Shown piece after piece: positions 26,245 through 40,287 of a DNA stretch of 52,532 bases. The stretch spans positions 1 through 52,532 of the forward strand of contig JADGBR010000025.1 of assembly GCA_015231405.1 (NCBI GenBank), written 5' to 3'. Both the position numbers and the translations under genes were made by a program. The stretch comes from Candidatus Omnitrophota bacterium (GTDB lineage Bacteria > Omnitrophota > Gorgyraeia > Tantalellales > Tantalellaceae). Position 1 is the stretch's first letter. Every line of letters starts with the position of its first letter. Below the pieces are notes generated by a model. That model ran no database searches. It was given only the letters and a program-made list of their open reading frames with translations, and was not told where the DNA came from.

Positions 26245-26631
26245 GGGGGTGACAGGAATCGACATGTTCTTCTAGCGGAGGGGCAGCATGCAGAGGTTGT
26301 CGGGAGGCCTCTTAAAACACCTGGCACAACGTAAAATGTCGACTACAATCCAGTAGCAGACGCCGAAGCGATCCTTGCTTCGGATACACTAGCTTCCAAT
26401 TTCATGGAAGCGGGTTTATTAGAGTGCGCCCTAGTGCGCTAATAGACTTACCAGAAATAGGGATGATCGGGGAAGGCTCCTTCCGGGCCCCGGTCTAAGC
26501 GCGTAGAAGGATGCTCGAGGGTGCGACCCGCGCGACGGCCGCCCCGAGAAAAGACCAAAGCCGCGATAAGCATGTAGATACTCCTTTGTTAAGGCTCATG
26601 GACCCGGGTTCGAATCCCGGCACCTCCACCA
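26245..26631 (+). ncRNA. ssrA: Transfer-messenger RNA
   Basis: 387 nt. The 5' end GGGGGTGACAGGAATCGACA and the 3' end GGTTCGAATCCCGGCACCTCCACCA are typical. Acceptor stem GGGGGTG pairs with CACCTCC (one G-U), and CCA is encoded. The T arm is intact. The tag frame is unclear: from GAC after ATGTC (26341) the frame runs 33 codons to tandem stops TAATAG (26440-26445) and ends ALVR rather than the usual ALAA. SmpB is encoded just upstream. The 3' end is the integration target for the islands downstream. Confidence 0.94.
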
Positions 26632-26710
26632 CTTTTTTACACGAAGCGCAAGTCGTTGCATTATAATGGTTTGCGCTTTTTGTTTTTATGCCAACTTTCG
26701 ATGGTGCCCA
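26616..26710 (+). repeat. att copy A: functional tmRNA 3' end, terminator and GTGCCCA arm
   Basis: The block CCCGGCACCTCCACCA (26616-26631), the terminator and ATGGTGCCCAAATGGGGCCT form the reference copy of a unit repeated at 28877, 30111 and 34410. It marks the left boundary of the first island. Confidence 0.8.
26644..26686 (+). terminator. tmRNA terminator
   Basis: AAGCGCAA/TTGCGCTT 8-bp stem with a ~19-nt loop, followed by a T-rich run (TTTTTGTTTTT). The hairpin is carried along in every att copy. Confidence 0.85.
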
Positions 26711-26854
26711 AATGGGGCCTATATAACGTACATTGCTGGACTGTATTCTGTATATATTCTTGTCTGAAAAGTGGTGGAGATGCAGAAAGGATAACCAACT
26801 GACGCCCTATTACTTGTGTTCTTTTTGAAGGATGCATTGTAGACGAAGAAAATA

Positions 26855-26905
26855 TTTACAAAATAAGATAATATGGTATACTCTGTTTTGTGGGTTATAC
26901 CATAT
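26855..26905 (+). promoter_or_regulatory. Promoter with overlapping inverted repeat operator
   Basis: TTTACA (26855-26860), 16 bp, TATACT (26877-26882). A perfect 10-bp inverted repeat, ATATGGTATA (26871-26880) and TATACCATAT (26896-26905), overlaps the -10 and covers the start site, suggesting autorepression of the fic operon. Confidence 0.7.
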
Positions 26906-26917
26906 TAAGGAGATAGG

Positions 26918-27865
26918 ATGGAATATTTGGATAAAGAAGTGATAAAGCGTATCGACTTAAAACTGGACGAACTTAATCGGCTTAGACCACTTCCGCCGTC
27001 CGCTGTTAAAAAGCTCCGCGAGCAGTTTGAGATCGAGATGACGTATAACTCCAATGCGATAGAGGGGAACAGCCTGACATTAAAGGAAACATATCTGGTT
27101 ATCAGCGAAGGAATAACGGTAAAGAATAAGTCTTTGAAGGATCATCTGGAAGCAAAAGATCACTATGAGGCGCTGGAATTTATAATGGAGCTTGTGGAGC
27201 ACAAAAAGCCGCAAACAGTTTCGGAGCAGCTTATTAAAACTCTTCACCAGATAGTAGTAAGAGATATTGAAAAAGAATGGGCCGGGAGATATAGAAATAG
27301 CAACGTAATGATAACCGGTGCCAGGCACAGACCCCCGGAGGCTATTAGTGTTCCTTCGGCCATGGCAGGACTCATACAGTGGTTTAGGGATAATGAGGGT
27401 AAACTGCATACGATCGAATTGGCGGCTATTGCTCATCATAAGTTTGTTAATATTCACCCCTTCTTTGACGGCAATGGCAGGGTTAGCCGGCTCCTTATGA
27501 ATGTGATACTTTTGCGTGAAGGATATCCGCTATCGGTAGTTTTAAAAAACGACAGGAAAAAGTATTACGATACTCTTTCAAAAGCAGATGAAGGCGATTA
27601 TACTCCTTTTGTTAGAATGATGGCTAGTAGCGTTGAGAGGTCTCTGGATATTTATCTCAAAGTTCTCAGGCCTGGAACTAAGGGCGACGAGAAGTATTTG
27701 GGCCTCTCGGAAATAAGCCCAAAAACACCATACTCGACAAAATATCTCAATTTGCTGGTTAGGCAGGGTAAATTGGAAGCGCACAAAGAAGGGAGGAATT
27801 GGCTGGCGAGCGTTGAAGCAGTTGAGAGATATATCAAGAATAGAAAACGTAAAAGGGTGCGCTGA
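26918..27865 (+). CDS. Fic domain protein (AMP-transferase type, class II)
   Basis: 315 residues. The catalytic Fic motif HPFFDGNGR spans 180-188, preceded by a beta-hairpin flap (NVMITGARHRPP). The N-terminal inhibitory motif S/TxxxEG is present as SNAIEG with Glu49, so the enzyme is probably self-inhibited until triggered. Fic enzymes usually transfer AMP to a target protein; the target is unknown. The last ~60 residues look like a helix-turn-helix (GLSEISPKTPYSTKYLNLLV), which could bind the palindrome upstream. AAGGAGA precedes the ATG. It is the first gene of island I and is followed by a beta-lactamase gene 34 bases away. Confidence 0.92.
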   Translation: MEYLDKEVIKRIDLKLDELNRLRPLPPSAVKKLREQFEIEMTYNSNAIEGNSLTLKETYLVISEGITVKNKSLKDHLEAKDHYEALEFIMELVEHKKPQTVSEQLIKTLHQIVVRDIEKEWAGRYRNSNVMITGARHRPPEAISVPSAMAGLIQWFRDNEGKLHTIELAAIAHHKFVNIHPFFDGNGRVSRLLMNVILLREGYPLSVVLKNDRKKYYDTLSKADEGDYTPFVRMMASSVERSLDIYLKVLRPGTKGDEKYLGLSEISPKTPYSTKYLNLLVRQGKLEAHKEGRNWLASVEAVERYIKNRKRKRVR

Positions 27866-27899
27866 CATCTTTCCATTTGAAAAATCAGCCATAATACAT

Positions 27900-28685
27900 A
27901 TGAAGCAAATATTATTTTATTTATGTTTTTCCCTGATGTGTACATTAGTAAACGCCCAGGAAGCCGATAAGGAGTTTTTCAAGGACTACGATGCCGCGTT
28001 CGTAATGTATGACCGGTCTTCTGGGCGGTTTATTAATCCCAATCCATCGCGTAGTGCCGAGCGATTAACCCCGTGTTCTACTTTTAAGATTTACAACACA
28101 CTTATTGGCTTGGAACTTGGTTTGATCCAAGGGGCTGATAGCCCTTGGTATAAATGGGACGGAATTCATCGTGATATAGACGGGTGGAATCGGGATTTGA
28201 CCCTTCGTGAAGCGTTCCGTGTATCGGCCGTGCCCGCGTATCAGATCTTGGCGCGTGAGATCGGTGCTGGACGGATGAAAAAATATATTGAACAGATCAA
28301 CTATGGAACCAATGATATTTCGGCCGGGATTGATACTTTCTGGCTCTATCGACAGGGTAACGCTTCGATTATGATCAGCGCAGATGAACAAGTTGCGCTC
28401 CTCAATAAACTTTTTGATGGGAAGCTGCCGTTCTCCGAAAAGAATATCGCGACACTTAAAGATGTTATGACAGCGGTTAAAACTGAAAAGGGAACGCTTT
28501 ATGGTAAGACCGGGTCAGGGATGAACAGAAATGGGAAATGGGATTTGGGATGGTTCGTTGGTTTCCTTGAACACGGCGGCGCGACGTATGTGTTTGCCTG
28601 CAATATAACCGGAGGAGAAGATCCTTCAGGGAAGACCGCTCGGGCGATCGTAGAAGATGTTATAAGATCTCAAGGGCTACTTTAG
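27900..28685 (+). CDS. Class D (OXA-type) beta-lactamase
   Basis: 261 residues from the ATG at 27900 that opens a clear signal peptide (cleavage after VNA); a longer frame overlapping fic is not used. Class D active-site motifs: STFK (60-63) with nucleophile Ser60 and carbamylation-type Lys63, SAV (109-111), YGT (135-137, usually YGN) and KTGS (203-206). It should act in the periplasm on beta-lactams; activity against any drug class cannot be told from sequence. The usual acidic residue after FWL is replaced (WLYRQ). It is probably co-transcribed with fic, an odd pairing, on a small tmRNA-linked island. Confidence 0.9.
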   Translation: MKQILFYLCFSLMCTLVNAQEADKEFFKDYDAAFVMYDRSSGRFINPNPSRSAERLTPCSTFKIYNTLIGLELGLIQGADSPWYKWDGIHRDIDGWNRDLTLREAFRVSAVPAYQILAREIGAGRMKKYIEQINYGTNDISAGIDTFWLYRQGNASIMISADEQVALLNKLFDGKLPFSEKNIATLKDVMTAVKTEKGTLYGKTGSGMNRNGKWDLGWFVGFLEHGGATYVFACNITGGEDPSGKTARAIVEDVIRSQGLL

Positions 28686-28723
28686 ACCGAGTTTGATTTT
28701 GGTCTAGCCTGCACAATTTACAA

Positions 28724-28970
28724 CGGTGCCCAAACGGTGCCCATTTTACATCAAACAATCTGCATACAAACGTCACAATATGTAACAATCCGCACTACTT
28801 AAACCCCGATCAAAACTGGGGTTATATGCTGAAAGCCTTATAAACGCTGGACTTGTGGAAATGTGCTTAGTAGTCTCCCGGCACCTCCACCATAATTTAG
28901 ATGAAGCGCAAGTTGTTGATTTATAACGGTTTGCGCTTTATTGTTTTAAGCCGACTTTCGTTGGTGCCCA
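28724..28970 (+). repeat. att copy B: island tail + tmRNA 3' end + terminator + arm
   Basis: Contains GGTGCCCAAACGGTGCCCA (28725-28743), a conserved ~130-bp tail, CCCGGCACCTCCACCA (28877-28892), the tmRNA-terminator relative (AAGCGCAAG...TTTGCGCTT) and a further GTGCCCA (28964-28970). The rest of 28686-29220 holds no gene. This copy lacks the palindromic insertion seen in copies C and E. Confidence 0.85.
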
Positions 28971-29220
28971 AATAGGGCCTAACAGCATTAATTTTTTTAA
29001 CATGCATCTGGCATAGGGTCCTTACGTGACCCGGTGGAGATGTAGATGATCCAAAACAATGTGAGAATTGGGATAGATTTTTAAGGTGCCAATTTGGCAC
29101 CTTAATTTGGTATGTCAAAAGATGTCAGGGTAAACATGAGGTCACATTTTGCGACATCATGTTGAGGTATCGAGCATATAAGAAATTATAGCGGTAGCAA
29201 TAAATAAAACACTACCGGGC

Positions 29221-29248
29221 TTGACTATTGTACCAAATATGGTACACT
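29221..29248 (+). promoter_or_regulatory. Toxin-antitoxin promoter with operator in the spacer, predicted leaderless
   Basis: TTGACT (29221-29226), 16 bp, TACACT (29243-29248). The dyad GTACCA...TGGTAC (29230-29245) lies between the two boxes. The ATG at 29257 begins 8 nt after the -10. Confidence 0.8.
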
Positions 29249-29256
29249 TATAGCAG

Positions 29257-29601
29257 ATGAATGTACAACATCCTTTAAACGTTTTCTTTTATCGAACGGA
29301 TACCGGTAATGAGCCTGTTAGAGATTGGCTAAAAGGTTTATCCAAAAGTGAGATGAAACGGATAGGTGTGGACATTAAAACGGTTCAATACGGTTGGCCG
29401 ATCGGCATGCCCGTAGTTCGGAATTTGACTCGAGGGTTATGGGAAGTTAGAAGTAACTTAGGGAATAAAATATCGAGAGTTCTTTTTACGTTGTATGGAA
29501 ACAATATCATTCTTCTTCACGGTTTCATAAAAAAGACCGCATCAACTCCGAAGGATGATTTAGATTTAGCTTTTAAAAGGATGAAGCAGATAAAGGGGTG
29601 A
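29257..29601 (+). CDS. higB: HigB/Gp49-type toxin (RelE superfamily)
   Basis: 114 residues matching the phage-derived Gp49/HigB pattern: PVRDWLKGLSK, GWPIGMPVVRNLTRGLWEVR, a basic RVLFTLYGN strand, and LLHGFIKKTASTPKDDLDLA. Family members are ribosome-dependent mRNA endonucleases. No Shine-Dalgarno precedes the ATG, consistent with the leaderless promoter. The antitoxin gene starts 4 bases after the stop. It is carried on island II. Confidence 0.92.
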   Translation: MNVQHPLNVFFYRTDTGNEPVRDWLKGLSKSEMKRIGVDIKTVQYGWPIGMPVVRNLTRGLWEVRSNLGNKISRVLFTLYGNNIILLHGFIKKTASTPKDDLDLAFKRMKQIKG

Positions 29602-29605
29602 CCAT

Positions 29606-29899
29606 ATGAAGAAAGCCAATCATAAACATGTAGGATCCAATTTTGATGATTTCCTCAAGGATGAAGGCATATTGGAAGAAGCACAAGCTGCAGCCGCGAA
29701 AAAGGTCGTTGCTTTTCAAATATTGAAGATCATGAAAGAAAGACGTATTTCCAAGTCGGGGATGACCAGAAGGATGCATATGAAAAGCCGTACGCAATTA
29801 GACAGGCTTCTCGATCCTGCAAATAGTTCTGTCACCCTTTTGACGCTGGAGAAAGTGGCTAACGCTTTGGGCAAGCGCTTGGAGGTCCAATTGGTCTAG
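29606..29899 (+). CDS. higA: HigA-type antitoxin with HTH domain
   Basis: 97 residues. A helix-turn-helix occupies ~45-95 (KSGMTRRMHMKSRTQLDRLLDP...LTLEKVANALGKRLEVQL). The N-terminal ~40 residues (FDDFLKDEGILEEAQAAAAKK) should wrap the toxin. It likely binds the GTACCA/TGGTAC dyad in its own promoter. AAGGGGTGA precedes the start, so it is translated by normal initiation, unlike the toxin. Confidence 0.92.
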   Translation: MKKANHKHVGSNFDDFLKDEGILEEAQAAAAKKVVAFQILKIMKERRISKSGMTRRMHMKSRTQLDRLLDPANSSVTLLTLEKVANALGKRLEVQLV

Positions 29900-29908
29900 A
29901 GTTTTGAG

Positions 29909-30355
29909 TGGTGCCCAAACGGTGCCCCCGCCTTCGCTTTCATTTAAAGGACTCACATAGCTTCGGCGGGCAGGCATTTTAAATCAAACAATATGCATAC
30001 AAACGTGACAATATGTAACAATCCGCACTACTTAAACCCCGATCAAATTTTGGGTTATATCCCGAAAGCCCTATAAATGCTGGATTTGCTAAAAATGTGC
30101 TTAGGAGTTTGCCGGCACCTCCGCCAACCTTCGCCACATATAAAAAAAGCTTATGGCTACGGTTGGCATCGTCCGCCTACGGCGGACTCGCCAGTTACTT
30201 TTATATTCAGGGAAGCGAAGGTTGTCCTCCGTAGCCGAATAATATAAGTTGATTTGGCGAAGGAGGGCTTTGTCACACGAATCGCAAGTGGTTGGATATA
30301 ATGACTTGCGATTCTTGTTTTTCAGCCAATTGTTTATTGTGCCCAAACTGTGCCC
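29909..30355 (+). repeat. att copy C: tail + diverged tmRNA 3' end + terminator, interrupted by insertions
   Basis: GGTGCCCAAACGGTGCCC (29910-29927), a palindromic insertion (to 29974), the conserved tail, GCCGGCACCTCCGCCA (30111-30126), a further palindromic insertion (30127-30273), the terminator relative (GAATCGCAAG...CTTGCGATTC), and two GTGCCCA (30339 onward). No gene lies in 29900-30475. Confidence 0.82.
30127..30273. repeat. 147-bp palindromic repeat cluster inserted in att copy C
   Basis: Made of CCTTCGCC/GGCGAAGG, CCGTAGCC/GGCTACGG and CCGCCTACGGCGGA units. The other att copies pass directly from CACCA to the terminator, so this block is an insertion. Its words match the repeat inside the coding sequence at 6337-6410. 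Confidence 0.72.
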
Positions 30356-30438
30356 AATTTGGGGTAGTCGAGATGCAAGCATTCACAACAGCGAAGGAAC
30401 ATTAAAATGTTAATATGTAAAAATTCAGTAAAACAACC

Positions 30439-30467
30439 TTGACTAAGTGTAGCTTATAAGCTACACT
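30439..30467 (+). promoter_or_regulatory. Second toxin-antitoxin promoter with perfect 24-bp palindrome, predicted leaderless
   Basis: TTGACT (30439-30444), 17 bp, TACACT (30462-30467). A perfect 24-bp palindrome (30445-30468, centre TTATAA, ends AAGTGTAGC/GCTACACTT) fills the spacer and covers the -10. The ATG at 30476 begins 8 nt after the -10. Confidence 0.88.
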
Positions 30468-30475
30468 TGTATCGT

Positions 30476-30805
30476 ATGGCGGAAAAGACGATCATAGTTT
30501 ATAGGACTCATGATAACAAGGAACCTTTTGCGACGTGGTTGTTTTCTTTGCGTGACAAGATAGTCAGGCAGCGCATTGAAACACGGGTAGATAGGATGAG
30601 ACAGGGCAACTACGGGGACCATAAACGTATTTCCGGTATTATAGAATTGCGTTTGGATTTTGGAAAGGGTTACAGGCTTTACTGTGGTGAGGACGGAGAG
30701 GTTCTGGTGGTGTTGCTTGTCGGAGGGGATAAAAGTACTCAAGAGCGCGACATAAAGAAAGCGTTGAGTTATTGGAGGGATTACAATGGCGAAAAGAAAA
30801 TTTAG
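30476..30805 (+). CDS. RelE/HigB-type toxin of the 'addiction module killer' family
   Basis: 109 residues from the ATG at 30476; a TTG at 30467 lies within the -10 and cannot be the start. Family pattern: PFATWLFSLRDKIVRQRIETR, GNYGDHKRISGIIELRLDFGKGYRLY and LLVGGDKSTQERDIKKA. Expected to be an mRNA endonuclease. It overlaps the antitoxin gene by 20 bases. First gene on island III. Confidence 0.92.
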   Translation: MAEKTIIVYRTHDNKEPFATWLFSLRDKIVRQRIETRVDRMRQGNYGDHKRISGIIELRLDFGKGYRLYCGEDGEVLVVLLVGGDKSTQERDIKKALSYWRDYNGEKKI

Positions 30806-31091
30806 AACGTTTGATGAAGTGCAGCTGGAACGGTATAAGAAACATCCGAAAGAGCTAAAAAGTTATCTTCAGGTAGCGCTGGCCGAATATCAAAAAGACG
30901 GAGACGAAAAAGCGTTTCTCGCGGCGCTTTCTGTCGCGGCAAGGGTGCATGGCGGTTTCAGCAAATTATCCAGGGCAACGGGGCTTAACCGTGAAAACTT
31001 ATACCGGGCGCTTTCTCGCAATGCGGACCCACGTCTCTCAACCATCATACAGGTGCTGAATACATTGAAATATTCGCTCAAGATCGCGTAG
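30786..31091 (+). CDS. Antitoxin of the 'addiction module antidote' HTH family
   Basis: 101 residues. The family pattern is clear: YLQVALAEYQKDGDEKAFLAALSVAARVHGGFSKLSRATGLNRENLYRALSRNADPRLSTIIQVLNTL, with an HTH in the second half. It should neutralise the toxin and bind the palindrome at 30445-30468. It overlaps the toxin by 20 bases, ensuring coupled translation. Confidence 0.92.
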   Translation: MAKRKFRTFDEVQLERYKKHPKELKSYLQVALAEYQKDGDEKAFLAALSVAARVHGGFSKLSRATGLNRENLYRALSRNADPRLSTIIQVLNTLKYSLKIA

Positions 31092-31101
31092 GCAAAAAGG
31101 C

Positions 31102-31140
31102 GGTGCCCAAATGGTGCCCATCCAAAGCGACAATGTTGTA
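31102..31140 (+). repeat. Short island-tail copy D
   Basis: GGTGCCCAAATGGTGCCCATC followed by CAAAGCGACAATGTTGT; a close relative is at 40057 (GGCGCCCAAGCGGCGCCCATC, then GAAAGTGACAATTTTGT). No tmRNA 3' end follows either, so these look like ends of decayed islands. Confidence 0.65.
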
Positions 31141-31256
31141 AGCTCTTGTATAATCTTGAATAACGCGTATAAGATCTAAAGCAAAGCGGCAATAGAAGTT
31201 ATCGTAAAAATCTGTTAATAGTGCAGAATTTTTGACGAGAGGGGAAGCAAAAATTT

Positions 31257-31274
31257 CTGCAGGTATACCTGCAG
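31257..31274. promoter_or_regulatory. Perfect 18-bp palindrome upstream of the helicase gene
   Basis: CTGCAGGTATACCTGCAG, 80 bases before the helicase start. An imperfect inverted repeat (GCAGAATTTTT/AAAAATTTCTGC) lies just upstream. A candidate operator; no clear promoter boxes are seen around it. Confidence 0.55.
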
Positions 31275-31354
31275 GAACATTACGATAAGTAGCTGTTTAG
31301 TCTAATTAGTAGTGATACAGCAGGTGGGGGCAGGTCAAGCCAAGGAATATTTGC

Positions 31355-34132
31355 ATGAACCCGCGCCAAAACATGATCATCGCTAACGGGAAGATCATTA
31401 CTCCCGAGGTTGTTTTTTGCCGGCTCAATCCACGCACTCGCAAATACGATATCAAATTTAAAGCGGGTAAGGTTTATTCGTATGGTTGTAATTCTGTAAC
31501 CTGGCTGAAAAATCCTAAAGTATTGAACCCCTCCAATTTGTTGATCAAACACAACAAAAAAGAACTATTCAGGATATCTGCTATTTATGTTTTCGGCGAT
31601 AAGCCTTCTCAATACTGGCATATTTGTTTTGACGATGGCAGTGAGCGGTATTATGAGGCAAGTGCGTTGGAGGTCACTACTTCTGCCCTGAATGACGAAG
31701 CTGCAAAAAATGTATTTGAGTATTTGAAGCGGACTGCTGCTTTTGTCGGCCCCTGCGCGGAGGATGGGACAAGGCTTCTTTTTAAACAGTACGAGAAAAT
31801 AAACTTTGTAAATGAAGGCGATGTGCTTTCGTGTTATTTGAATCCTGGAAAGCTCCGGGCAAGCCAGTTGGGTGCAGCTAGTCCCGTTTTCCCATTCGGC
31901 TGCAACGCAAGCCAGGAGTCGGCGGTAAAAAACGCACTTGAGAATCAGCTAAGTGTAATAGAGGGGCCGCCCGGTACCGGAAAAACACAGACAATCCTTA
32001 ATATTATCGCTAATCTTCTTATCGCAGGGAAAACCGTGCAGGTTGTTTCCAATAACAATTCTGCGACATTAAATGTTTTTGATAAATTGTCCGAAGATGG
32101 TTTTGGTTTTCTTGTGGCCCCGTTGGGGAATTCAGAGAACAAAGCAAATTTTATTCACGCCCAGACGGGGAGTTATCCCCTCGCAATTCAATCCTGGGCT
32201 TCGGACATATCATGTGAAAAAGTACTTCTCCAGGATATTCGCAAGCACTCTGAAGAACTGGGGGAGATTTTTAAAAAACAAGAGAGGCTTGCCAGTATCA
32301 GAAAGGATTTGCAGGAACTGGACATAGAGCTGAAATATTTTGAAGAGTATTTAAACGAAAACATTAGTGCTTCCTGTAACACCAAGATCCGCAGAACATT
32401 AAAGAGCGATAGGATCCTGCAGCTGTGGGGGGAATGTCAGGGGTTTTCTGAATCAAAAAAACGTCCATCATTCCTGTTTAGATGTAAATGCCGCTTTGTA
32501 TATGGCATATCAGAGTGGCGTTTTTACAAGAAGGACATTAATGAGGTCGTGGCACTTATGCAGGCGCTGTTTTATCGCGCACGGCGAAGGGAATTAACCG
32601 AAGAGATCTGCGGCATCGAAAAGAGCCTCGCTGCTTGCAGCCGTGATAAAAAGGCTGAAGACCTGCGCGACAAGTCGATGCGTTATTTGAAGGTGAAAAT
32701 GCATATGCGGTACGGTCAGAAGGCGGATCGAAGAGTCTTTACCGAAGAAGATCTGTGGCGAAATCCGAGGGTAGTCCAGAAGGAATATCCGATTGCTCTG
32801 AGTACCACGTTTGCGGCTCGCAGCAGTCTATGCGGAAAAGCCTATTTCGATTATGTTATTGTTGACGAAGCTTCACAGGTCGACGTCACGACCGGTACCT
32901 TGGCTTTGTCGTGCGCGCAAAATGCTGTTGTTGTCGGAGATACAAAACAGCTCCCTAACGTGGTAGCCGGTGATGACAAAAAAAACTTGCAGGATATATT
33001 TAATTCGTATGCTATCAGTCCGAATTATAATTTCGCCGAAAAGAGTTTTTTGCGGTCGGTATGCGATGTTGTGCCGGACGTGCCGAAAAAACTGTTGCGT
33101 GAGCATTACCGATGCCACCCCAAAATTATTAATTTCTGTAATCAGAAATTTTATGACAGGCAGCTGGTAGTCATGTCTCAGGATAGCGGCCAAAAGGATG
33201 CTATTTCGGTTATTAAATCGGTTGCTGGTGATCACGGGCGGGACCGCATGAATCAACGGCAGATCGACGTAGTAATGAAGGAAATACTGCCGACCATTCC
33301 TTACCCCGACGAAGAGATCGGCATTATTGCTCCGTATAATAACCAGGTTGATGCGATCCGCGCAGCCCTTAGCGATAGGAAAATAGAGGTTGCTACTGTA
33401 CATAAATTTCAAGGACGCGAAAAAGACGCTATTATTATTACCACTGTTGATGACGAGGTGACCGAATTTTCGGATGACCCGTATTTGTTGAATGTGGCAG
33501 TTTCTCGTGCCAGGCAAAGTTTATACCTTGTTGTTTCAGGGAACGGACAGCCGAAAGACAGTAATATCGGCGATTTGATCGACTACGTCGAATATAACAA
33601 TTTTAAAGTTGTGAAAAGCTCAATATATTCCGTTTTCGACTTTCTCTACAGGCATTATACGGAAAGCCGTATAAGATACCTGAGAAGGTATAGACATGTT
33701 TCTGAGTATGATTCCGAAAATCTAATGTATGCGCTCATAATCAATGTGTTGCAGGCGAACGGTTATTCGGCGTTGGGTGTGGTGTGTCACCAGCCATTGA
33801 ATATGCTGATCCGTGATTTCAGGCTGCTGACCGACGAGGAATGCCATTATGCGATGAACAGTTCTACTCACTTGGATTTTTTGATTTATAATCGCATCAG
33901 CAAAAAACCGGTTATTGCGGTCGAAGTCGACGGTTTTCACTACCATAAGAAGGGGACGGATCAGCAGGTGCGTGATATAAAGAAAGACCATATCCTTGAG
34001 CTTTATGGAATACCGCTTCTACGTTTTACGACAAATGGAAGCGGAGAAAAAGAGAAGCTTACCGCTAAACTGAAAGAAGTGTATTATTCAAAGGAGCAGG
34101 CCGGAGTCGCCCTATCTTCGCGTATATCTTAG
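31355..34132 (+). CDS. SF1 (Upf1/Dna2-like) helicase fused to a VSR/DUF2726-like nuclease
   Basis: 925 residues. Helicase motifs: Walker A GPPGTGKT (204-211), Walker B VDEASQ (D504-E505), GDTKQLP, HYRCHP, TVHKFQGREKDAIII and NVAVSRAR. An insertion of ~200 charged residues follows Walker A (~280-470). The last ~90 residues form a VSR-like nuclease: D841 in HLDFLIYN, then E857-V-D859-G in AVEVDGFHYHK. A single large helicase-nuclease on a TA-bearing island fits a one-gene phage-defence protein, comparable in design to Mokosh type II or Hna, but with a different nuclease. AAGGAA precedes the ATG. DNA repair is the alternative. Confidence 0.87.
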   Translation: MNPRQNMIIANGKIITPEVVFCRLNPRTRKYDIKFKAGKVYSYGCNSVTWLKNPKVLNPSNLLIKHNKKELFRISAIYVFGDKPSQYWHICFDDGSERYYEASALEVTTSALNDEAAKNVFEYLKRTAAFVGPCAEDGTRLLFKQYEKINFVNEGDVLSCYLNPGKLRASQLGAASPVFPFGCNASQESAVKNALENQLSVIEGPPGTGKTQTILNIIANLLIAGKTVQVVSNNNSATLNVFDKLSEDGFGFLVAPLGNSENKANFIHAQTGSYPLAIQSWASDISCEKVLLQDIRKHSEELGEIFKKQERLASIRKDLQELDIELKYFEEYLNENISASCNTKIRRTLKSDRILQLWGECQGFSESKKRPSFLFRCKCRFVYGISEWRFYKKDINEVVALMQALFYRARRRELTEEICGIEKSLAACSRDKKAEDLRDKSMRYLKVKMHMRYGQKADRRVFTEEDLWRNPRVVQKEYPIALSTTFAARSSLCGKAYFDYVIVDEASQVDVTTGTLALSCAQNAVVVGDTKQLPNVVAGDDKKNLQDIFNSYAISPNYNFAEKSFLRSVCDVVPDVPKKLLREHYRCHPKIINFCNQKFYDRQLVVMSQDSGQKDAISVIKSVAGDHGRDRMNQRQIDVVMKEILPTIPYPDEEIGIIAPYNNQVDAIRAALSDRKIEVATVHKFQGREKDAIIITTVDDEVTEFSDDPYLLNVAVSRARQSLYLVVSGNGQPKDSNIGDLIDYVEYNNFKVVKSSIYSVFDFLYRHYTESRIRYLRRYRHVSEYDSENLMYALIINVLQANGYSALGVVCHQPLNMLIRDFRLLTDEECHYAMNSSTHLDFLIYNRISKKPVIAVEVDGFHYHKKGTDQQVRDIKKDHILELYGIPLLRFTTNGSGEKEKLTAKLKEVYYSKEQAGVALSSRIS

Positions 34133-34208
34133 TACACCTGTCCCTGAATTTGCAGAGTGAGGGCAAGTGGGATCAGACCTTGGAATAAGAAATAACGAGT
34201 AAAATCGA

Positions 34209-34505
34209 AATGGTGCCCAAACGGTGCCCCCGCCTTCGCTTTCATTTAAAGGACTCACATAGCTTCGGCGGGCAGGCATTTTAAATCAAACAATATGCAT
34301 ACAAACGTCACAATATGTAACAATCCGCACTACTTAAACCCCGATCAAAATTAGGGATATTTTGAAATCATTATAAATGCAGGACTTGCGGAAATGTGCT
34401 TAGTAGTCTCCCGGCACCTCCACCATATTTTTATAAGAAGCGCAAGTCTTTGAGTTATAACTGGTTGCGATTTGTTGTTTTATGCTAACTTTTCTTGTGC
34501 ACAAA
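34209..34505 (+). repeat. att copy E: right end of the tmRNA-linked array
   Basis: GGTGCCCAAACGGTGCCC (34212-34229), the palindromic insertion (34228-34275), the conserved tail, CCCGGCACCTCCACCA (34410-34425), a terminator relative, and a decayed arm (GTGCACAAACGGTGCC). No gene in 34133-34671. Confidence 0.85.
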
Positions 34506-36088: not shown

Positions 36089-36174
36089 CTAGTGCAACAC
36101 CTCTTGAAACTTTTCATGAGGCGTATACCAGCCAAGAGTTTTGCGAGGCCGGTCGTTTATAGCTATCAAGACGC
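36089..36174 (-). pseudogene. IS30-family transposase C-terminal remnant
   Basis: On the minus strand the last ~28 codons read AINDRPRKTLGWYTPHEKF and end at TAG, a typical IS30 transposase C-terminus. The stop lies in CTAGTGCAACACCT, the same inverted end found at 52427. The rest of the element is deleted. 36020-36440 holds no other gene. Confidence 0.82.
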
Positions 36175-36255
36175 TTTATCTATCCCATATATTTACATTA
36201 TCTTCCAAATCAAATCCGGGTAAAAAATTAAAACATAAAGGATGATTTCGGGGCT
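36160..36255 (+). repeat. Direct repeat flanking the LysR-DUF4914-carbonic anhydrase block (left copy)
   Basis: A 25-bp exact match (36202-36226; begins CTTCCAAATCAAATCC) within a ~90-bp diverged repeat, shared with 40129-40215. A degenerate island tail (CAACGGCACCCATCT) lies just before it at 36045-36059. Confidence 0.75.
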
Positions 36256-36440
36256 GTTCATTTCCGGTGCTAAAACTGCGCCTGAGAATATTAGATTCCC
36301 GTCGACATTTGAGGTCTATTCCCCCTTGTAAAATTTGAGAAACCTGGGCGAGTATATGTTTTATGGATCATGAAAACATTCTTACAGCAACTTGCAGCGG
36401 GATGATCTTTGCGAGTTATTATGGTATTACGCGAGTGCGG

Positions 36441-40054: not shown

Positions 40055-40215
40055 AGAATGGCGCCCAAGCGGCGCCCATCGAAAGTGACAATTTTGTCTC
40101 GATATGACGATGCTGCACGTATTCTCCGCCCAGTTATCCAGACGCTTTACCCGTCTGCAATCTTTGATATAACTTCCAAATCAAATCCGGGTAAAAATTG
40201 AAAACGTAACGTATG
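40055..40215 (+). repeat. Island-tail relative and right copy of the 36.2-kb direct repeat
   Basis: GGCGCCCAAGCGGCGCCCATC (40057-40077) resembles tail D. The exact 25-bp match to 36202-36226 lies at 40173-40197. No gene occupies 40027-40340. Confidence 0.72.
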
Positions 40216-40287
40216 ATCTCGGCAATATTTATTCCATAAAATATCGGGCAGTGGGGTAGATGCAGATGCCGGTAAACAAGATCCTAA

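Follow-up and report, generated by a model that had tools for sequence, protein, structure and literature searches.

Introduction

What does a gene that joins a helicase to a nuclease in one chain do on a mobile-looking tract next to a tmRNA gene? The gene lies in a stretch of 52,532 nt from a Candidatus Omnitrophota genome (here "the window"), and the first-pass annotation had proposed it as a one-protein defence. We give a probability of roughly 58% to the reading that it is a stand-alone, horizontally spread effector against phages (or plasmids) that would act by motor-driven PD-(D/E)XK cutting. The evidence comes from the predicted protein, the cassette that carries it, its relatives in other genomes and their neighbours.

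The predicted protein

The gene and its parts are as follows.

31355..34132, + strand: helicase-nuclease gene (open reading frame with ATG start, 925 aa; Pfam; AlphaFold pLDDT 89.3, pTM 0.89)
31355..31684, + strand: N-terminal residues 1-110, two five-stranded beta units in tandem (strands in the AlphaFold model)
31889..33604, + strand: SF1 helicase core, residues 179-750 (Pfam, motif alignment, AlphaFold model, Foldseek)
33758..34081, + strand: PD-(D/E)XK (DUF2726) nuclease domain, residues about 802-909 (Pfam, conservation, model, Foldseek)
33875-33877, 33923-33925, 33929-33931 and 33983-33985, + strand: nuclease residues D841, E857, D859 and K877

The frame has no internal stops and the protein is intact. 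Pfam recognizes AAA_11 (183-537, 4e-24), AAA_12 (568-727, 7e-27) and DUF2726 (835-906, 4e-10, or 7e-11 with the C-terminus as sole query), with weaker matches to MTES_1575 and DUF559, and no model in PADLOC, NCBIfam or PHROGs spans the entire protein. In the AlphaFold model, built with 66 aligned relatives, an all-beta region (1-110) and a helical linker are followed by RecA-like domains 1 and 2, a further helical linker (762-801) and the nuclease.

The helicase core carries Walker A GPPGTGKT (204-211), Walker B DEAS (504-507) and motif VI NVAVSRA (713-719), with a helical insertion (286-477) that the model places inside RecA-like domain 1. Motifs I, Ia, II, III, IV, V and VI show practically no variation across 87 aligned relatives, the set on which all conservation counts given here are based. 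The nearest solved proteins by sequence are IGHMBP2, Dna2, UPF1 and SEN1, and the best Foldseek matches are SETX, IGHMBP2, UPF1 and Dna2. With motifs I-VI present and UPF1, IGHMBP2 and SETX as closest structures this is a UPF1-like SF1 helicase, in agreement with the complete Upf1/Dna2-type helicase proposed before.

The C-terminal domain scores 40 bits against DUF2726 (PF10881), above the curated Pfam cut-off of 24.7. A nuclease core D841/E857-V-D859 had been proposed, and these residues are indeed in place and conserved in 87, 86 and 84 of the 87 relatives, respectively; H864 is found in 85, Q870 in all 87, and R873, D874, K877 and R890 in 86 each. Judged from the alignment, the conservation of the nuclease and helicase motifs far exceeds chance. 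The core of PD-(D/E)XK enzymes is alpha-beta-beta-beta-alpha-beta. In the model D841 lies on strand 839-846 and E857 and D859 on strand 852-859, followed by helix 869-883 (with Q870, R873, D874 and K877) and strand 888-892 (with R890), which places the acidic pair on adjacent strands of such a core, as in DUF2726-type nucleases. The order of strands and helices is the one expected, and a lack of catalytic geometry, which would have counted against the proposal, is not seen. D859 takes the place of the canonical lysine of (D/E)xK, for which K877 may be the migrated substitute.

The best Foldseek match of the C-terminal model (pLDDT 85.7) was BstEII (E 0.001, probability 0.99), with further matches to TnsA and I-Bth0305I (TM 0.60 by target length). 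Matches with probability 1.0 to viral proteins were to DUF2726 proteins and to restriction and homing endonucleases. Single alignments to solved nucleases are loose, with low TM-scores, and the leading probable matches in either library belong to a single fold class, so that the earlier term "VSR-like" is a fair label at fold level. By sequence, the best match of the C-terminus to a solved structure was I-Bth0305I (E 0.22, not significant alone).

At the other end of the protein, the roughly ten strands of residues 1-110 group in the model as two units of five, a strand count that would suggest SH3-like barrels; this region had no family match in Pfam and no PDB match by sequence. In short relatives the N-terminal region has 118-148 residues versus about 178 otherwise, and by eye it holds one copy of the motif "KGedkT...F.sGKtYsY". 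These relatives appear to retain one beta unit, which fits a duplication or the loss of one unit.

A cassette array at the tmRNA gene

The gene is carried by the last of three tandem cassettes (26598-34425) with ends in common and different cargo. The features of the array are listed below.

26245-26631, + strand: tmRNA gene (Rfam RF00023, 142.8 bits)
26598..26631, + strand: tmRNA 3' end, first boundary copy (Rfam RF00023; repeat D4)
26632-28892: cassette 1, Fic protein and class D beta-lactamase
28859..28892, + strand: boundary copy, cassettes 1/2 (tmRNA 3'-end repeat)
28893-30126: cassette 2, RelE/ParE-type toxin and HTH antitoxin
30093..30126, + strand: boundary copy, cassettes 2/3 (tmRNA 3'-end repeat)
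30127..34425, + strand: cassette 3, 4.3 kb, second toxin-antitoxin (TA) pair and helicase-nuclease (bounded by tmRNA 3'-end copies)
30467..30805, + strand: RelE/ParE-type toxin, HI1419-like (TIGR02683, 108 bits, cut-off 62.85)
30786..31091, + strand: antitoxin, HI1420-like (TIGR02684, 61.4 bits, cut-off 53.7; PF21716)
31257..31274, no strand: 18-bp perfect palindrome CTGCAGGTATACCTGCAG, upstream of the helicase-nuclease gene
34211..34391, + strand: right end of cassette 3, alike to the ends of cassettes 1 and 2
34392..34425, + strand: boundary copy after cassette 3 (tmRNA 3'-end repeat)

Each cassette is closed by a copy of the tmRNA 3' end, CCGGCACCTCC(A/G)CCA, preceded by AAATGTGCTTAG; counting the tmRNA itself there are four such copies in the window, against 0.24 expected. 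The similarity extends beyond the copies. Positions 34211-34425 are 91% identical to the end of cassette 2 (29909-30126), and 34277-34505 are 87% identical to the end of cassette 1 and beyond (28742-28972). The 80-100 nt 3' of each boundary copy are also alike, shifted in cassette 3 by an insertion of about 140 nt (30127-30267) that contains a GTCCGCCTACGGCGGAC inverted repeat and separates the boundary copy from the left-end homology. What had been called a hotspot island can thus be described more precisely as three cassettes in a row at the tmRNA 3' end, each bounded by repeats. The TA module reported beside the gene is also real, both members exceeding the curated cut-offs of their families. 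The palindrome is there as described (the chance of one like it in the 263-nt upstream stretch is 0.0008). Its supposed role as a controller is not supported: the corresponding stretch upstream of 84 relatives contains no palindrome longer than 14 bp, so that it is not a family feature and a conserved operator was rejected.

The sequence after the boundary copies resembles that 3' of the tmRNA gene in the genome of a member of the same family (G222). In this family member an MNT-like nucleotidyltransferase and a HEPN-like protein were noticed by eye 3' of the tmRNA gene (L111:2702-3663), which supports the tmRNA as a hotspot in the lineage. The predicted tag of the tmRNA in the window is unusual, AEAILASDTLASNFMEAGLLECALVR, and that of G222 is also long and odd, EAESILAEDALVPQYAGASSLVGALAY; either the tags are misread or this lineage has unusual ones.

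A local integrase was considered and rejected. The whole assembly has only two tyrosine recombinases, open frames of 301-302 aa on other contigs, which by their size are probably XerC and XerD, and no phage-type integrase was found in it. For this reason we regard the cassettes as integrase-less units with common ends. They may be what successive insertions left behind or units moved in trans, and a fourth one may follow beyond 34425. An autonomous element with these ends was rejected as well, as they have no exact match in viral contigs and no further copy in the genome; the genomes of family relatives have only short stretches in common with them. It is conceivable, as a tentative picture, that integrase-less cassettes moved in trans accumulate at the tmRNA gene and deliver an uncatalogued, widespread single-gene defence (UPF1-like helicase plus DUF2726 nuclease), the tmRNA 3' end being the landing site at which defence, toxin-antitoxin and resistance cassettes line up in increasing number. 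The array is in any case a concrete example of how such genes may pile up at a tmRNA.

Several other features of this region deserve mention. The motif GGTGCCCAAA(T/C)(G/A)G(G/T)GCC recurs at 31102, 28725, 29910, 34212, 26703 and 28963, mostly at cassette ends, and is possibly a recombinase or arm site. Directly 3' of the tmRNA gene, 26918-27865 encodes a Fic/DOC-family protein whose best PADLOC match is SoFic. The class D (OXA-like) beta-lactamase of cassette 1 (27813-28685) reaches 216 bits, below the NCBIfam cut-off of 250, and is therefore taken as a divergent member of the class; it is doubtful that translation begins at the TTG, which overlaps the Fic gene, and more likely that it begins at an internal ATG that precedes a signal-like stretch. 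Outside the array, a 102-nt direct repeat (36161-36262 and 40132-40233, 75-77% identical) surrounds a 4-kb block with a LysR regulator and a 626-aa ORF.

Relatives and their neighbourhoods

A scan of 84,980 genomes gave at least 80 loci with 37-58% identity, and plasmids, E. coli and viral contigs supplied further relatives down to 33%. The resulting 87-row tree spans at least nine phyla, which are intermixed (its groups are Bacillota, Bacteroidota, Spirochaetota, Chlorobiota, Campylobacterota, Bdellovibrionota, Fibrobacterota, Pseudomonadota and Melainabacteria), and the window protein pairs with one from a Treponema bin (98% SH-aLRT) within a Bacillota-rich set. Among the sampled genomes the gene is present in 1 of 292 of the window's class and 1 of 384 of its phylum. 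Its GC content is 44% versus 50% in the flanks. With dN/dS values of 0.08-0.33 within the family, the coding sequences themselves indicate that the gene is under purifying selection, and the simplest reading is horizontal spread with function retained. The mobile setting that had been suggested is supported.

The gene is frequent in E. coli, where 646 of 5,426 genomes (ca. 12%) carry it, always on the chromosome and in islands. It is full length there, and in two of the three islands examined the adjoining genes are broken; WP_170937855.1 is one of the intact E. coli homologues. A disrupted copy is suggested in O157:H7, since in the listed O157:H7 records the match covers two annotated features. 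A prophage origin was rejected: in 2.9 million viral contigs only nine of 252 pattern matches were relatives (two of them 33-residue matches only), and three phage records matched.

We then counted neighbours within 10 kb of 49 loci in whole genomes, with expectations that use rounded genome sizes and a Poisson approximation and treat related loci as if independent. On these terms N6_Mtase was found near six loci (0.59 expected, P 4e-5) and GmrSD_N near three (0.30 expected, P 0.004), while UvrD_C was at background level (one locus, 0.78 expected). The observed counts are lowered by the many short contigs. The relatives therefore sit in defence-rich settings and, judged by UvrD_C, not mainly beside repair genes, a context that would have spoken against defence. 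One relative is directly adjacent to a TOTE primase-helicase (L078) and another to a Schlafen-group helicase that matches the PADLOC candidate PDC-S41 (L044); the gaps at single loci are 6 bp to the primase-helicase, 8 bp to the Schlafen-group helicase and 10 bp to a DUF2779 gene. On a Parabacteroides plasmid (L006) N6-methylase, SNF2 and bSEFIR genes lie upstream. A Bacteriovoracaceae operon (L065:3328-12499) encodes a DUF2779-like protein, EVE-McrB, McrC and then the helicase-nuclease, and is a possible CoCoNuT-like system.

A constant operon partner was rejected, as neighbour clustering found no gene common to more than 10 of 89 loci; generic ABC ATPases made up its largest cluster. Since no partner recurs, the helicase-nuclease is best seen as a stand-alone unit.

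Function of the helicase-nuclease

What we have is an intact and conserved two-enzyme protein of which both fold classes are recognized, kept by purifying selection, widely transferred, found in defence-rich and in mobile settings and lacking a constant partner. From the genomic context, anti-phage defence is its likely role. Non-defence cargo is also found in defence islands. In our model the UPF1-like motor, together with the N-terminal beta units, would engage a nucleic acid characteristic of infection, with ssDNA, free ends or replication/repair intermediates as the most likely forms. Driven by ATP hydrolysis, the motor would move or remodel this substrate, and the fused PD-(D/E)XK domain would cut it. 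We infer the anti-phage activity, the choice of DNA over RNA and the control that the motor exerts over the nuclease. As long as it is not engaged, the motor probably holds the nuclease back, by analogy with the two-subunit HamAB, in which the helicase holds the nuclease in check until damaged DNA is met (PMC12278908).

It is also possible, though we consider it unlikely, that the substrate is RNA. The motor would then load on RNA of the phage or of the stressed cell and the nuclease would cleave it, leading to growth arrest or abortive infection. RNA is a frequent substrate of UPF1/IGHMBP2-type helicases, which counts against a DNA-based defence, and the best helicase matches (SETX, IGHMBP2 and UPF1) are RNA helicases. 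Along the same lines, the authors who described CoCoNuTs argue for RNA as the target of systems with the UPF1-like CnuH and consider that it may also be cleaved by some Vsr-like nucleases (PMC11090510). However, the C-terminal fold matches the DNA enzymes BstEII, TnsA and I-Bth0305I, DNA-modification and restriction genes are among the enriched neighbours, and helicases of the IGHMBP2 and Dna2 types are active on DNA too.

More improbable is a general DNA repair or recombination enzyme, a bacterial counterpart of Dna2 that reached islands by chance. The domain logic, a nuclease with a UPF1-like helicase, is that of Dna2. However, the nuclease is C-terminal and of DUF2726 type, whereas that of Dna2 is N-terminal and RecB-like, and a patchy, mobile gene that is not enriched beside UvrD-type helicases hardly fits a repair function.

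We see still less chance that the protein is part of an McrBC-coupled CoCoNuT type III-B system with its partners elsewhere in the genome. Its design is that of CnuH III-B, and two relatives are near McrBC genes (one 7 bp downstream of the EVE-McrB/McrC pair of L065, the other about 6 kb from McrC at L077), which suggests a real CoCoNuT link. Nevertheless, McrC is within 10 kb of only these 2 of 49 loci, McrC has no match anywhere in 36 of the 49 genomes, and the cargo of the window cassette is the TA pair and the helicase-nuclease only. Finally, that the gene serves the cassettes that carry it, by processing or protecting the element or by keeping competitors out, would agree with its position within a cassette and is very improbable, given that cassettes 1 and 2 have like ends without it and that the relatives are not bound to one type of element.

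Comparison with known systems

The first-pass annotation had held that known one-protein helicase-nuclease defences use other nuclease folds. This is contradicted by CoCoNuT type III-B, whose CnuH has been predicted to consist of a UPF1-like helicase with a Vsr-like PD-(D/E)xK nuclease fused directly to it (PMC11090510). The design is thus already published and the novelty claimed is reduced accordingly. CnuH, compared by description only, shares with our protein the UPF1-like SF1 helicase, a large helical insertion after Walker A and the C-terminal Vsr-like nuclease in one chain (PMC11090510). It is described with an N-terminal wHTH, where residues 1-110 of our protein are modelled as all-beta with a duplicated unit, and is encoded with CnuA, CnuB/McrB and CnuC/McrC. 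No CnuB/McrB or CnuC/McrC was found among the searched ORFs of the window cassette, and because the McrBC context is missing here and in 47 of 49 loci we have not filed the gene under CoCoNuT. The literature searched contained no stand-alone version of this fusion.

The other known systems are more distant. Hhe, a DUF4011-containing anti-phage protein of about 1,800-1,900 aa, is a helicase-Vsr fusion. It is likewise a single-protein defence with a helicase core of the same class (a partial HMM match), whereas our protein has half its length, lacks DUF4011 among the Pfam matches and reaches 104 bits against a cut-off of 2000, outside the Hhe family. Dna2 also joins a UPF1-like helicase to a nuclease of PD-(D/E)XK class and is a Foldseek match, with the domain order reversed, another nuclease family and the role of a core cellular enzyme. 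The best PADLOC match is Mokosh type II MkoC (1.8e-49, helicase only), in which a UPF1-like helicase and a nuclease are similarly combined in one defence protein; Mokosh types I and II have a PLD-like nuclease domain (PMC10952713), in place of which our protein has PD-(D/E)XK, with no PLD domain among its Pfam matches. DUF2726 nucleases have the REase fold and are already tied to defence through AbiJ-NTD3 fusions (PMC3710099), where the same C-terminal domain family occurs without a helicase.

The helicase-nuclease is therefore set apart from CoCoNuT (with CnuH compared as above), Hhe and Mokosh. If active, it would be a defence made of one gene, carried by about 12% of E. coli genomes and occurring in at least nine phyla, for which PADLOC-DB and NCBIfam have no specific model, and it would allow helicase-triggered nuclease action to be studied in a single chain. 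It would also suggest that the effector known from CoCoNuT III-B exists mostly as a stand-alone weapon.
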